Of a stretch of 23,876 bases of DNA, positions 931 to 6,812 are shown one piece after another. The stretch is from positions 1 to 23,876 of the IMG/VR virus record IMGVR_UViG_3300038429_000424, one strand, 5' to 3'. Made by a program: the position numbers and the translations under genes. Origin of the DNA: a virus. The notes under the pieces were generated by a model. The model did no database searches. It was not told where the DNA came from and saw only the letters and a list, made by a program, of their open reading frames with translations. Position 1 is the first letter of the stretch. Every line of letters begins with the position of its first letter.

Positions 931-2549
931 TGTCTCTTGTAGCTGATCTTCTAAAAAGATTTGGTTATGTGAAAATGAAACGTGATCCTTCTGTCGGTGG
1001 GGGCTATACGGGATATGCAGCCGCGCAGACGGGACGAATTTTCGACTCCTGGAATCCGACGAATCTCAGCGCAGACGCCGCCCTTCGTTATCAGCTTTAC
1101 AGGATCCGTGCCCGCTCGCGCGACCTCGCCATCAACAATGCCTATATCAAGAAATTCATCGGCATGGTTACAACGAACGTCCTCGGCCATTCCGGCATTA
1201 ATTTCCAATCGAAGGTGAAATTCAAAAACGGAGATTTCGACAAGAAGACGAACGCACTCATCGAGGAAAAATGGGATGACTGGGGCAAAAAGAAAAACTC
1301 CCCGGACGTGTCAGGTAAACTCTCCTGGCGCGGCATCCAGAGGCTCATCCTCCGGACCGTCGCCACGGACGGCGAGATACTGATCCGCAAGATCTGCGGT
1401 TTTGACAATCCCTATAAATTCTCGCTCCAACTCATCGACGCTGACCACCTCGACGAATTCTATAACGCCGCCCTCCCGAACGGAAACCAGATCCGCATGG
1501 GCGTGGAGATCGATCCGTGGGGAAAACCCGTCGCGTACTGGGTATGGAAGCGCCATCCCTATGACTACCTCTATGGCCAGGCCATGGTCGGCCAGCGCGA
1601 ACGCATTCCGGCGGAAGAGATCATTCATCAGTTTGTGCCGCTCCGCATAAATCAGCGCCGCGGTGTTCCCTGGGCTTTTGCCGCCATGGCGAAGACCAAC
1701 GTCCTCGACGGCTATGAGGAAGCTGAACTCGTTGCCGCCCGCGTTGCCGCGGCAAAGATGGGCTTTTTTGAAACCGACCCTTCCGGAGTTCCTGGTATGC
1801 CTATTGACGGCACGGACAGTGACGGAAAGCTGATCGTTCAGGCCGACCCGGGGACATTCTGGAATCTACCCCCCGGCAAGAAACTGAACATGTTCAAGCC
1901 GGAGCACCCGACGACGGCATATGAAGGGTTCGTGAAACAGGTCATCCGGGCATTGGCCAGCGGCCTCGAGGTTTCCTATAACAGCCTGTCCTCCGATCTC
2001 GAGGCCGTCAATTTCTCCTCTATCCGTTCCGGCACGCTCGAAGAACGGGATAACTGGAAGGCTGTCCAGGGCTGGTTTATTGAGGACTGCTGCGAACAGA
2101 TATGGCTGCCCTGGCTGGAGATGGCCGTCATGACGCAGCAGCTTCCCTATTCCATCTATGACCTGGGACGTCTGAACGCGTGCAAGTGGCAGGGCCGCAG
2201 CTGGTCATGGGTGGATCCGTTGAAAGACCAGAAGGCGAATTCTGAAGGGATCGCGACGGGCCTTTCCACCCGGACAGATATTGCAAACGAACAGGGCAAG
2301 GATTTCTTCGAGATGATCGACACGATCGCTGAGGAAGAAAAATACATCAAAGAAAAAGGCCTCACGTTTGTCTTCCCGGGTAAAGGAACGGCTCAACCTC
2401 CCGAAGGCAAACCGAATGAACCGGTAACGCCAACGGGCGAGCAACCGACAGGCGAGCCGAAAGGCGTGGACGCGGCGGCGGCGAAGATGAAGGTCATCGA
2501 CGGCGGGAAGAGAAGCCTGGATATCGCCGAGGAAAACGAAGGAGGGTAA
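930..2549 (+). CDS. Phage portal protein, lambda gpB family
   Basis: The 539-residue length is typical of lambda-family portals (PF05136 type). Portals form the dodecameric ring at one capsid vertex through which DNA is packaged and ejected, and to which the head-tail connector attaches. The N-terminal region has the family's usual start (short helix, then GGGYTGYAA and a long helical stretch with RYQLYRIRARSRDLAINNAYIKK-like residues at about 53-75). The middle carries EEIIHQFVPLRINQRRGVPW (about 229-248), a strong portal signature. The C-terminus is Pro/Glu-rich and probably disordered. It overlaps the upstream gene by one base and is followed 3 bp later by the protease-capsid gene, as expected for a head operon. 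Identification is confident from motifs, length and position. Confidence 0.92.
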   Translation: MSLVADLLKRFGYVKMKRDPSVGGGYTGYAAAQTGRIFDSWNPTNLSADAALRYQLYRIRARSRDLAINNAYIKKFIGMVTTNVLGHSGINFQSKVKFKNGDFDKKTNALIEEKWDDWGKKKNSPDVSGKLSWRGIQRLILRTVATDGEILIRKICGFDNPYKFSLQLIDADHLDEFYNAALPNGNQIRMGVEIDPWGKPVAYWVWKRHPYDYLYGQAMVGQRERIPAEEIIHQFVPLRINQRRGVPWAFAAMAKTNVLDGYEEAELVAARVAAAKMGFFETDPSGVPGMPIDGTDSDGKLIVQADPGTFWNLPPGKKLNMFKPEHPTTAYEGFVKQVIRALASGLEVSYNSLSSDLEAVNFSSIRSGTLEERDNWKAVQGWFIEDCCEQIWLPWLEMAVMTQQLPYSIYDLGRLNACKWQGRSWSWVDPLKDQKANSEGIATGLSTRTDIANEQGKDFFEMIDTIAEEEKYIKEKGLTFVFPGKGTAQPPEGKPNEPVTPTGEQPTGEPKGVDAAAAKMKVIDGGKRSLDIAEENEGG

Positions 2550-2552
2550 CAA

Positions 2553-4790
2553 ATGGCGCTGAAGTTAAACCCGAAGGGGCACGCTCATGCGAAGTCGCTC
2601 ATCAAGGCCGGCAAGGTAGATAAAGATTCATCCTGGTTTATGAGCGCTGATGACGAAAACAAGATACTGGGGGATCCACCTGACTGGACGGAATATGCGA
2701 AATGGTTTCTCGGCATCGATCCCGGCGCCGGCAACGATACAAAGGATCATTACAAATATCCCTTTGGCAAAGACGGTAAGGTCTATCGCTCCGCTCTGAT
2801 CGCCATACGACAGCGGGCGGCCCAGCAGGGCGCGACGGTCATCTTCGACACCGCCGGCGAACTCATCAAGGAGATCGACGGAACCGAAAAGGCCCTGCAA
2901 GCCGAGGAAAAAAGGGACATCAACAACCTCGGCCCGCAGCGGCGCACGGTCGATATCGAAATCCGTGCAGTCGATGATAATCCAAATCTGAAGGAATTAT
3001 CTTTCTCATCGGAATTTCCGGTCGAAAGATGGTGGGGAATCGAGATCCTCGACCACTCCCCTAAATCTGTCCAACTCGACAGGCTGAAGAAGACCGGCTC
3101 GGTTCTCATAAACCACAACATGGATCAACTTGCTGCGAGAGTGATCGATGCATCCATATCCGGGAAGAAAGGGCGCGCAACAGTTGAATTTTCACCATCC
3201 GCATTCGCTCAGGAAAAGAAGCAGGAAGTCGACGCCGGCTTCTGGCGCAGCACGTCCGTTTCTTACAACATCAACAAAATGGTCTTGGAGAGCGACGATA
3301 ATGGGATTCAGACCTATCGGGTCACCGATTGGGAACCCCTCGAGATATCGCTGGTAAGCGTTCCCGCCGATCCGTCCGTTGGGGTGGGCAGAACAATAAT
3401 CGACAATTCAACAAAACCTATCGTGAAGGAGGAAAGAAAGAAAATGGATGAAAACGAAATCAAGACAAAAATCGATGACGCGCGGAAACAGGGCGGAGAG
3501 GCGGAAGCTCAGAGGGTGAAGGGCATCCTTGCCATCGCCAACAGCGATGACAATAACAAGTTTATGGACATCGCTCTTCGCTATGTCGAGAACGGCCGGA
3601 CCGTCGACGAGTTCAAATTCTCGCTGGACGAGTTTCGGAAGTTGAATCCTCAGCCCGTGGTCGATCCCAAGGTTACGATCGGGATGAACGACAAAGAGAT
3701 CAGGGCATATAGTCTTGTCAGGGCGATGCGGAAGTTGGCTGACGGGCATAAGCTGGACGGCATTGAAAGAGAGGCCTCCGATGCAACTGCCAAGATATGT
3801 AGGAAGGAAGCGAGAGGCTTTTTCATTCCTCAGGACGTCATGTTGGCCGAGGGACCAATCAACCCGGAACTATATAGGGCAATGAGGGACATGCAGGGCA
3901 AACGAACCCTTTCCGTCATGACGTCAGCAAGCGGCGGTTTTCTTGTTGACACGGAAGTTATGGGCGGCAGTCTCATTGAACTGCTCAGGAACAAGCCATA
4001 CGTAGCACAGCTGGGCGCCACTACCCTGACGGGACTCGTGGGCAATGTCGCGATTCCCAGGGTGACCGGCGGAGCGACGACCTATTGGCTATCTGAATCC
4101 GGCCAGGTAACCGCAGCCGACCAGGCCTTCGGTCAGTTGGGGCTCGTTCCTCACAGACTTGTCGCGGATACCGCCTATACGAAGGAACTCCTCATGCAGG
4201 CCTCCATCGACATCGAGGCATTCGTTCGCAATGATCTCATGACCGTTCTCGCGATCGAGAAAGACAGGGCGTCCCTATTTGGGCAGATATCATCCGGTAA
4301 TGCCGGTGAGCCGCTCGGGATCTTCGGGAATACGGGTATAGGCTCCGTGACTTTCGGCGCCGCTGCAACCTGGGCCAAAGTCCTCGATTTTGAAACCCAG
4401 GTCGCAACTGCAAACGCTCTTCTCGGAGCGATGGCCTACCTGACTTCGCCGGGAGTCCGCGCAAAATGGAAGGCCGCCGTCAAGATCGCTGGATCGCAAT
4501 ATTCCGACTTCCTGTGGCAGGGTGGCAATAACCTGGGCGAAGGCCAGGTCAATGGGTATAAGGCGGTCGCCACAAATCAGATACCGGCAACCGGAACGTA
4601 CGCTCACAGAGTAGTGTTCGGCAACTGGGCTGACCTGATCCTGGCAGAATGGGCCGGCATCGATGTGGTTGTCGATCCCTACTCCCTAAAGAAACAGGGT
4701 CAGATCGAAGTGACGATCACCCTTTGGACGGATATTGGAGTTCGCCATGCCGGCAGTTTCACCATTTCTGCTGACTCCGGCGCGCAATAA
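2553..4790 (+). CDS. Prohead protease / HK97-fold major capsid fusion protein
   Basis: The protein has 745 residues with at least three parts. Residues 1-115 form an unassigned N-terminal domain also seen at the start of other phage protease fusions. Residues about 130-280 match a U35-type prohead protease: His188 in the INHNM motif, Ser235 in TSVSY, and Glu264 in LEISLVSVPADP are the likely catalytic residues. Residues about 298-450 are charged and helical, like an HK97 delta/scaffold domain. Residues about 450-745 match the HK97-fold major capsid protein (SASGGFLVDTEVM, AIPRVTGGATTYW, GNWADLILAEW). The protein would assemble the procapsid and cleave its own scaffold part. Such fusions are known. 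GGAGGG precedes the start. An internal start at 3444 may also produce capsid alone. Confidence 0.92.
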   Translation: MALKLNPKGHAHAKSLIKAGKVDKDSSWFMSADDENKILGDPPDWTEYAKWFLGIDPGAGNDTKDHYKYPFGKDGKVYRSALIAIRQRAAQQGATVIFDTAGELIKEIDGTEKALQAEEKRDINNLGPQRRTVDIEIRAVDDNPNLKELSFSSEFPVERWWGIEILDHSPKSVQLDRLKKTGSVLINHNMDQLAARVIDASISGKKGRATVEFSPSAFAQEKKQEVDAGFWRSTSVSYNINKMVLESDDNGIQTYRVTDWEPLEISLVSVPADPSVGVGRTIIDNSTKPIVKEERKKMDENEIKTKIDDARKQGGEAEAQRVKGILAIANSDDNNKFMDIALRYVENGRTVDEFKFSLDEFRKLNPQPVVDPKVTIGMNDKEIRAYSLVRAMRKLADGHKLDGIEREASDATAKICRKEARGFFIPQDVMLAEGPINPELYRAMRDMQGKRTLSVMTSASGGFLVDTEVMGGSLIELLRNKPYVAQLGATTLTGLVGNVAIPRVTGGATTYWLSESGQVTAADQAFGQLGLVPHRLVADTAYTKELLMQASIDIEAFVRNDLMTVLAIEKDRASLFGQISSGNAGEPLGIFGNTGIGSVTFGAAATWAKVLDFETQVATANALLGAMAYLTSPGVRAKWKAAVKIAGSQYSDFLWQGGNNLGEGQVNGYKAVATNQIPATGTYAHRVVFGNWADLILAEWAGIDVVVDPYSLKKQGQIEVTITLWTDIGVRHAGSFTISADSGAQ
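3426..3446 (+). promoter_or_regulatory. Internal Shine-Dalgarno and in-frame ATG inside the protease-capsid gene
   Basis: AAGGAGG (3426-3432) is a near-perfect Shine-Dalgarno sequence, followed after 11 nt by an in-frame ATG (3444, codon 298). The position falls exactly at the junction between the protease domain and the scaffold/capsid part. Starting here would give a 448-residue product containing scaffold plus capsid. The sites are seen directly; use in vivo is inference. Confidence 0.55.
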
Positions 4791-5871: not shown

Positions 5872-6384
5872 ATGATCGCATCATTGATAGGGGCCCTGCT
5901 GGGCGGCGCTTTCCGCTGCATCCCTGAAATTTTGAACTTCTTTGACAAGAAAAACGAGCGCGCCCATGAACTCTCCATGCAGGACAAACAGATGGAGTAC
6001 GCCAAGATTCAGGGCGAGCAGAAGCGCGAGGAGATCGGAGCGCAGAGCCAGGCCGATTGGGACAAGGGTACGATCGATGCCCTGAAGGAGGCCATCACGT
6101 CCCAGAATATTTCGTTCCAGAAGACGGGATATGCCATCGTAGATTTTCTCATGGCTCTCGCGGTCTTCATCTCTTCGACCATCCGGCCCGCCGTGACCTA
6201 CATTGTCGTCGGCCTTTATTGCGGCATGAAAATTTGCTTGGTGATCGCTGCATATCAGGCGGGATCCGGCTTCGTGGAGATAGCGAAGATCCTCTGGACC
6301 GAGCAGGACCAGGGCGTGCTGACAGGCATCCTCAACTTCTGGTTCCTGGGCAGGGTCTTTGACAAGGCGAAAGGATCCTCATGA
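5872..6384 (+). CDS. Probable holin (three-TM GTA-holin-like topology)
   Basis: The start at 5872 is preferred over the longer in-frame ATG at 5746 because AAGGAGAG lies just upstream and the longer version would overlap the previous gene. The 170 residues comprise a Gly-rich amphipathic N-terminus (2-13), a long charged helix (24-85), a hydrophobic segment (about 88-102), a second (about 107-129), and a weaker hydrophobic stretch (about 147-162). This resembles the three-TM phage holins with a central charged helix. Holins form the membrane lesion that releases the endolysin. The downstream endolysin starts inside its stop codon (ATGA), indicating coupled translation. Confidence 0.6.
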   Translation: MIASLIGALLGGAFRCIPEILNFFDKKNERAHELSMQDKQMEYAKIQGEQKREEIGAQSQADWDKGTIDALKEAITSQNISFQKTGYAIVDFLMALAVFISSTIRPAVTYIVVGLYCGMKICLVIAAYQAGSGFVEIAKILWTEQDQGVLTGILNFWFLGRVFDKAKGSS

Positions 6385-6812
6385 ATAAGGTGGCCCTGAC
6401 CCTCGAGATGCACTTCGAGGGCTATCATGAGATTCCCTATTACTGTCCCGCTGGACTTCTGACGGGCGGCTATGGACACGCCTTCAAGAGAGGCGAGCCG
6501 GTTCGGCCGTTGCCGAAAGAAGAGGCGAGAAGGGTTCTGGAGAATGACCAACTGGCCGCGGAGAGATCGACGTTTCGCCTCTGTCCGGTTCTGCTCATTG
6601 AATCCGAGAGCCGCCAGGGTGCGATAATCGATTTTGTGTTCAACCTGGGCGGCGGAAGACTACAGGCGTCGACGTTACGGCGGCGGATTAATCAGCGGAG
6701 CTGGCCGGAGGTGGGGCGCGAGCTCCGAAAATGGGTGCGCGGAGGAGGCAGGATCCTGCCGGGCCTGGTCCTCAGACGTGAATCGGAGGCGAGGCTGGTC
6801 TCATGTCACTGA
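6381..6812 (+). CDS. Endolysin, T4-lysozyme-like muramidase (GH24)
   Basis: The protein has 143 residues. The N-terminus carries the GH24 pattern: Glu13 in HFEGY, Cys22 in YYCPAG, and Thr28 in LTGGYGH. In T4 lysozyme the triad is Glu11-Asp20-Thr26; a Cys at the Asp position is common in one branch of phage lysozymes and is known to be compatible with activity. VFNLGGGRLQASTLRRRIN is the conserved second-lobe motif. It cleaves the MurNAc-GlcNAc bond of peptidoglycan. No signal peptide or SAR segment is seen, so it depends on a holin. Overlaps: ATGA with the holin gene, and 10 bases with the next gene. Confidence 0.9.
   Translation: MNKVALTLEMHFEGYHEIPYYCPAGLLTGGYGHAFKRGEPVRPLPKEEARRVLENDQLAAERSTFRLCPVLLIESESRQGAIIDFVFNLGGGRLQASTLRRRINQRSWPEVGRELRKWVRGGGRILPGLVLRRESEARLVSCH

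Follow-up and report, generated by a model that had tools for sequence, protein, structure and literature searches.

An internal start signal conserved in phage protease-capsid fusion genes points to two products from one reading frame

The protease-capsid fusion gene

The window analyzed here is the whole 23,876-nt stretch of viral DNA, and it carries an open reading frame of 745 amino acids at 2553..4790 (+ strand, as for all coordinates of this gene). The encoded protein is a fusion in which an N-terminal region is followed by a U35/S78-type prohead protease, a disordered linker, a scaffold-like delta domain, and an HK97-fold capsid. It belongs to PHROG 617 (fused major head protein; E=1e-121), with residues 128-741 aligned to positions 8-623 of the 626-position profile, a full-length match that covers protease, delta, and capsid. 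Against the NF045541 model (prohead protease/major capsid fusion; cut-off 525 bits) it scores 124.9 bits, and its best stretch takes in only the protease and the beginning of delta, making it a relative rather than a member. The PHROG 617, PHROG 4523, and NF045541 families all have the domain order of the window fusion, and the protease-capsid fusion itself is already recognized and named in databases. In each of the 21 PHROG 617-type phage records, the fusion is entered as one CDS, with no internal product annotated. A single-protein search of the genome contig collection found no relative.

The protease domain (residues ~128-268; 2934..3356) scores 19.9 bits against PF04586 (Peptidase_S78/U35), just below the cut-off of 21, and 38 of 40 aligned family members match this model at E <= 1e-3. 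His188, Ser235, and Glu264 are invariant in alignments of 16 and 40 members and, from what is known of the family, are presumably catalytic. In the AlphaFold2 model (mean pLDDT 72.7), the protease ends near residue 268, pLDDT falls below 50 across the disordered linker that holds the internal initiation region (residues 272-299; 3366..3449), and delta-like helices begin at residue 300. The delta domain (residues 298-460; 3444..3932), with helices over 300-449, is expected to be removed at maturation. A second low-confidence stretch (443-474) leads into the capsid domain (residues 461-737; 3933..4763), which is delimited by PF05065 and by alignment to the R4C capsid (8gta). The match to PF05065 (Phage_capsid), 110.3 bits against a cut-off of 24.2, identifies an HK97 fold, and structural comparison places R4C 8gta first and GTA and HK97 capsids among the top matches.

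Two further features of the region can be recorded here. Residues 1-125 (2553-2927) match positions 1-107 of PHROG 34096 (head maturation protease) and are poorly modelled by AlphaFold2. Downstream, an endolysin-like ORF (6381-6812; PHROG 7, E=3.5e-32) lies within the head genes, with the capsid gene on one side and head-closure genes on the other, which is unusual for a lysis gene.

An internal start signal at the domain boundary

The upstream start, ATG 2553, has a Shine-Dalgarno (SD) sequence AAGGAGG at 2539..2545, 7 nt before it. The same heptamer recurs inside the gene at 3426..3432 (duplex -11.7 kcal/mol), ahead of an in-frame ATG at 3444..3446, codon 298 of 745. A sequence-only reading had pointed to this pair and its 11-nt spacer, which is on the long side, and both the sequence and the translation confirm it. 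They likewise confirm that a start at codon 298 leaves 448 residues of the fusion (3444..4790); this predicted short product would be a delta-capsid precursor much like the free gp5-type precursor of HK97. The further claim, that the site falls exactly between the domains, agrees with the AlphaFold2 model: given the position of the linker and the long helix from residue 300, the internal ATG falls at the first residues of the delta domain.

AAGGAGG followed 5-13 nt downstream by ATG occurs five times on the + strand of the window, against 0.34 expected from dinucleotide shuffling. The other four sites precede 2553, 5133, 8271, and 8421, and at least three of these (2553, 5133, and 8421) are ordinary gene starts. 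For the fusion ORF (2238 nt), the expected number of such sites is 0.04, irrespective of frame. However, the peptide at the internal SD is K-E-E, and against synonymous shuffles the window's own SD is only mildly unusual (p ~0.09), so the weight of evidence must come from homologues. One relative (L032, 68% identical) has an identical SD sequence and spacing.

Conservation across PHROG 617-type fusions

Together with the window, 21 annotated phage records and 84 viral contigs gave a set of 106 fused sequences, which fall into 47 clusters at 60% identity, most of them ~35-45% identical to the window protein. Conservation of the signal had been set beforehand as the test of an internal start, and the homologues bear it out for both the ATG and the SD. 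The linker between protease and delta is conserved in neither sequence nor length, and methionine frequency predicts a linker ATG in 31.8 ± 3.1 clusters. Instead, it is present in 47 of 47 clusters and 104 of 106 sequences, L070 and L098 being those without it. An SD at or below -6 kcal/mol accompanies 39% of linker ATGs vs 11% of 1491 other in-frame ATGs in the same genes (p 1e-9, a guide only, as the sequences are related).

Synonymous-codon shuffling separates the nucleotide signal from the protein. With one sequence per cluster, the summed SD dG is -308.9 vs -219.8 ± 16.7 in the shuffles, and none of 500 shuffles was as strong. The count of clusters at or below -6 kcal/mol tells the same story (31/47 observed; mean 15.6 and maximum 23 in the 500 shuffles). 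This comparison is conservative because the shuffles retain residues whose codons favor an SD. The pooled result is strong, whereas the per-sequence version is weak for each phage (4/47 below 0.05), and we rejected it as sole proof. By codon phase of the SD, 32 clusters fall in phase 2, 6 in phase 0, and 4 in phase 1, and the spacing to the ATG is mainly 5 or 8 nt. Because three codon phases are used, it is the nucleotide string that is kept rather than one peptide. Altogether, these comparisons show, at the level of sequence, that the family conserves the internal start signal more than its protein alone would demand.

Such a signal might instead be unused today, either left over from an earlier gene fusion or arising incidentally from a linker rich in K and E. 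The K-E-E codons do favor an SD-like string, as the window's p of 0.09 reflects, some relatives have split genes, and several homologues (L001/L002, 48% identical; L004/L009; L033; L041; and L062) have no SD-like site. In a cyanophage-rich clade, only 9 of 33 members have one, though nearly all keep the linker ATG. However, a relic should decay, yet across 47 clusters of mostly low identity the ATG is kept, and in most the SD as well. The use of three codon phases in differing amino-acid contexts, and an SD strength reached by 0/500 shuffles, also speak against this explanation, which we regard as highly improbable.

The cyanophage-rich clade consists of S-LBS1, S-CBS1, S-CBS3, and ~30 IMG/VR contigs (e.g., L051, L063, L074, and L104). 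Its linker ATG often begins Met-Glu-Asn/Asp, and in most members the mRNA at this site still shows unusually little structure. Elsewhere in the gene, the fusions of CRP-831 (L031, 1403-4327), S-CBS1 (L022), L104, and L105 have 400-565 residues before the internal ATG, N-terminal parts that far exceed the needs of a U35 protease.

A second fusion family and split relatives

PHROG 4523 proteins join a similar protease to a Mu gpT-like capsid. In all seven examples compared (PBb001, S1, RcKemmy, Vibrio phage 1.049.O, Shewanella phage 1/44, LPPA33, and yong2; a PHROG scan covered two of them), the linker holds an ATG with an SD-like site of -5.6 to -7.8 kcal/mol. Other relatives encode the two parts separately. 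In L006-L008, a capsid gene follows a protease gene, and in FP_Epona (L112) and Dulem virus 34 (L113) the capsid gene, preceded by an SD of -11.6 or -12.2 kcal/mol, begins just past the protease. The capsid gene of these split relatives starts at the same boundary as the internal ATG of the fusion. Database names in the latter two genomes mislead: their small protease genes go under "major head and protease protein" or "major capsid protein," and the capsid gene of FP_Epona carries the name "head maturation protease."

Predicted initiation and mRNA structure

We scored initiation with our own short version of a published type of ribosome-binding-site model; it is simplified, combining SD pairing, a penalty for spacing, the start codon, and local folding, and its ratios are rough. 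Among 1008 start codons on the + strand of the window, codon 3444 receives the top score, and the next ranks are mostly ordinary gene starts. The predicted ratio of internal to upstream initiation is roughly 11:1 in the window and exceeds 1 in 17 of the 22 records compared. Since the SD of the upstream start equals the internal one in strength and is better spaced, the predicted excess of the short form rests, in this simple model, on mRNA structure. The linker (3366..3449) is the least structured mRNA among positions sampled in the ORF. Folding at the linker ATG is -7.2 vs -16.5 kcal/mol elsewhere (p 1e-12) and is also weaker than in synonymous shuffles (p 4e-4). As stand-alone proof, mRNA structure was rejected, since linker composition accounts for most of the effect.

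An internal start may also be used sparingly, with a minor or regulatory short form and a long form that supplies most of the shell. The equally strong, better-spaced upstream SD is consistent with this, as are predicted ratios below 1 in five records (MQ4, Alexa, S-LBS1, S-CBS1, and FoX5). The majority of records point the other way, as do the volume of the long form (below) and the small number of proteases that a prohead requires, so we consider a minor role for the short form unlikely.

The same protein outcome would arise if the short product came from its own mRNA through an internal promoter, in the manner of herpesvirus UL26.5, rather than from initiation on the long mRNA. A search for sigma-70-like sites, the one type covered, found none on the + strand from 2500 to 3444 and two in the whole region on both strands, against 1.6 expected. 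An internal promoter seems a very remote prospect.

Stoichiometry and maturation

How much room would the long form take? The interior of an HK97-like prohead has a radius of 185 A, which we combined with a general value for protein density. If this phage is assumed to have a prohead of HK97 size, a shell made only of long subunits would, as solid protein, occupy ~97% of the interior; for CRP-831 and L105 the value is 144-150%, and for all-short subunits it is ~30-40%. With the all-long volume near or over capacity, we argue that the short form must dominate. An excess of the short form is thus supported by three inferences: the ~11:1 predicted ratio, the lowest mRNA structure in the ORF, and volume.

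Volume also bears on an alternative in which only the full-length fusion is made, the protease of every subunit cuts itself off, and the internal SD-ATG goes unused. The protease-scaffold fusion gpO of phage P2 is described as working at full length (PMC7552001), and the upstream start of the window gene owns a strong SD. Nevertheless, a shell such as that of R4C is built from 415 capsid subunits (PMC10276861), and as many tethered proteases would have to be accommodated. In addition, the ATG and SD are maintained family-wide beyond protein need, and the separate capsid genes of relatives begin at the same boundary. We find exclusive use of the full-length form very unlikely.

The deposited R4C capsid chain (8gta) begins at the residue aligned to window residue 461, which would place the maturation boundary there; the R4C structure paper makes no statement on a protease or cleavage. 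Cleavage near residue 461 would fall downstream of codon 298, so the long and short precursors should yield an identical mature subunit. N-terminal sequencing of mature virions, which the sequence-only reading had proposed as a check, could then not distinguish the precursors and would be uninformative.

A proposed two-product gene

We consider it very likely, judging from sequence, that the fusion is a two-product gene, giving a little protease-delta-capsid and, through the internal ATG 3444, much delta-capsid precursor. We infer initiation at 3444, the long:short ratio, co-assembly, and the cleavage site as parts of one scheme. Ribosomes starting at 2553 would make the 745-aa protease-delta-capsid. 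Others, recruited separately by AAGGAGG 3426-3432 within the unstructured linker, would begin at ATG 3444 and make the 448-aa delta-capsid, probably in excess over the 745-aa form. The two forms would co-assemble by way of the delta and capsid domains that they have in common, so that in each prohead a minority of subunits would bring along a tethered protease. Cleavage by this protease near residue 461 would then remove both delta and the protease domain, and the mature subunits that remain (~285 aa) would all be identical.

Beyond this phage, internal initiation in protease-capsid fusions is probably a general, overlooked device in at least two capsid families (PHROG 617 and PHROG 4523), one that would set the prohead protease:capsid ratio at translation, and the annotated major capsid proteins would not be the main primary product. 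A two-product gene would resolve a stoichiometry puzzle, namely how a shell gains hundreds of subunits (415 in R4C) without being filled with protease. It also predicts that many phage genomes annotate their major capsid protein from a start that is wrong for the main product, and a simple rule for re-annotating capsid starts follows from the internal-start reading. These phages would also offer a natural system for setting the dose of prohead protease through one ribosome-binding site. A literature search, mostly of openly accessible journals, found no paper that describes the internal start of these fusions, and we make no claim of priority.

Comparison with known systems

A close parallel in gene layout is the nested C/Nu3 pair of phage lambda, in which an in-frame internal start gives a short protein that shares the C-terminal assembly domain. 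There, as proposed here, the long protein bears the protease and the short one shares that domain. Two traits of the C/Nu3 type are found in the window fusion: an in-frame internal start with a ribosome-binding site at the domain boundary, and a signal conserved beyond protein need. In lambda, C and Nu3 act as protease and scaffold (PMC3224144). The lambda short product is scaffold only, and capsid E has a separate gene, whereas the short product proposed here is the capsid precursor itself, with the scaffold present as delta.

In HK97, the gp5 delta-capsid precursor co-assembles with a minority of gp4 protease, and delta is removed at maturation. HK97 encodes gp4 and gp5 in two genes, in contrast to one ORF with an internal start, and capsid identity to HK97 is low (~12%). 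The herpesvirus UL26/UL26.5 pair comprises a protease-scaffold protein and a scaffold-only protein with a common C-terminus, the latter from a separate transcript; unlike the window fusion, it does not include the capsid protein. Finally, gpO of phage P2 joins an N-terminal maturation protease to an assembly domain, as here, but it is described as a full-length product, and the capsid protein gpN is separate (PMC7552001).
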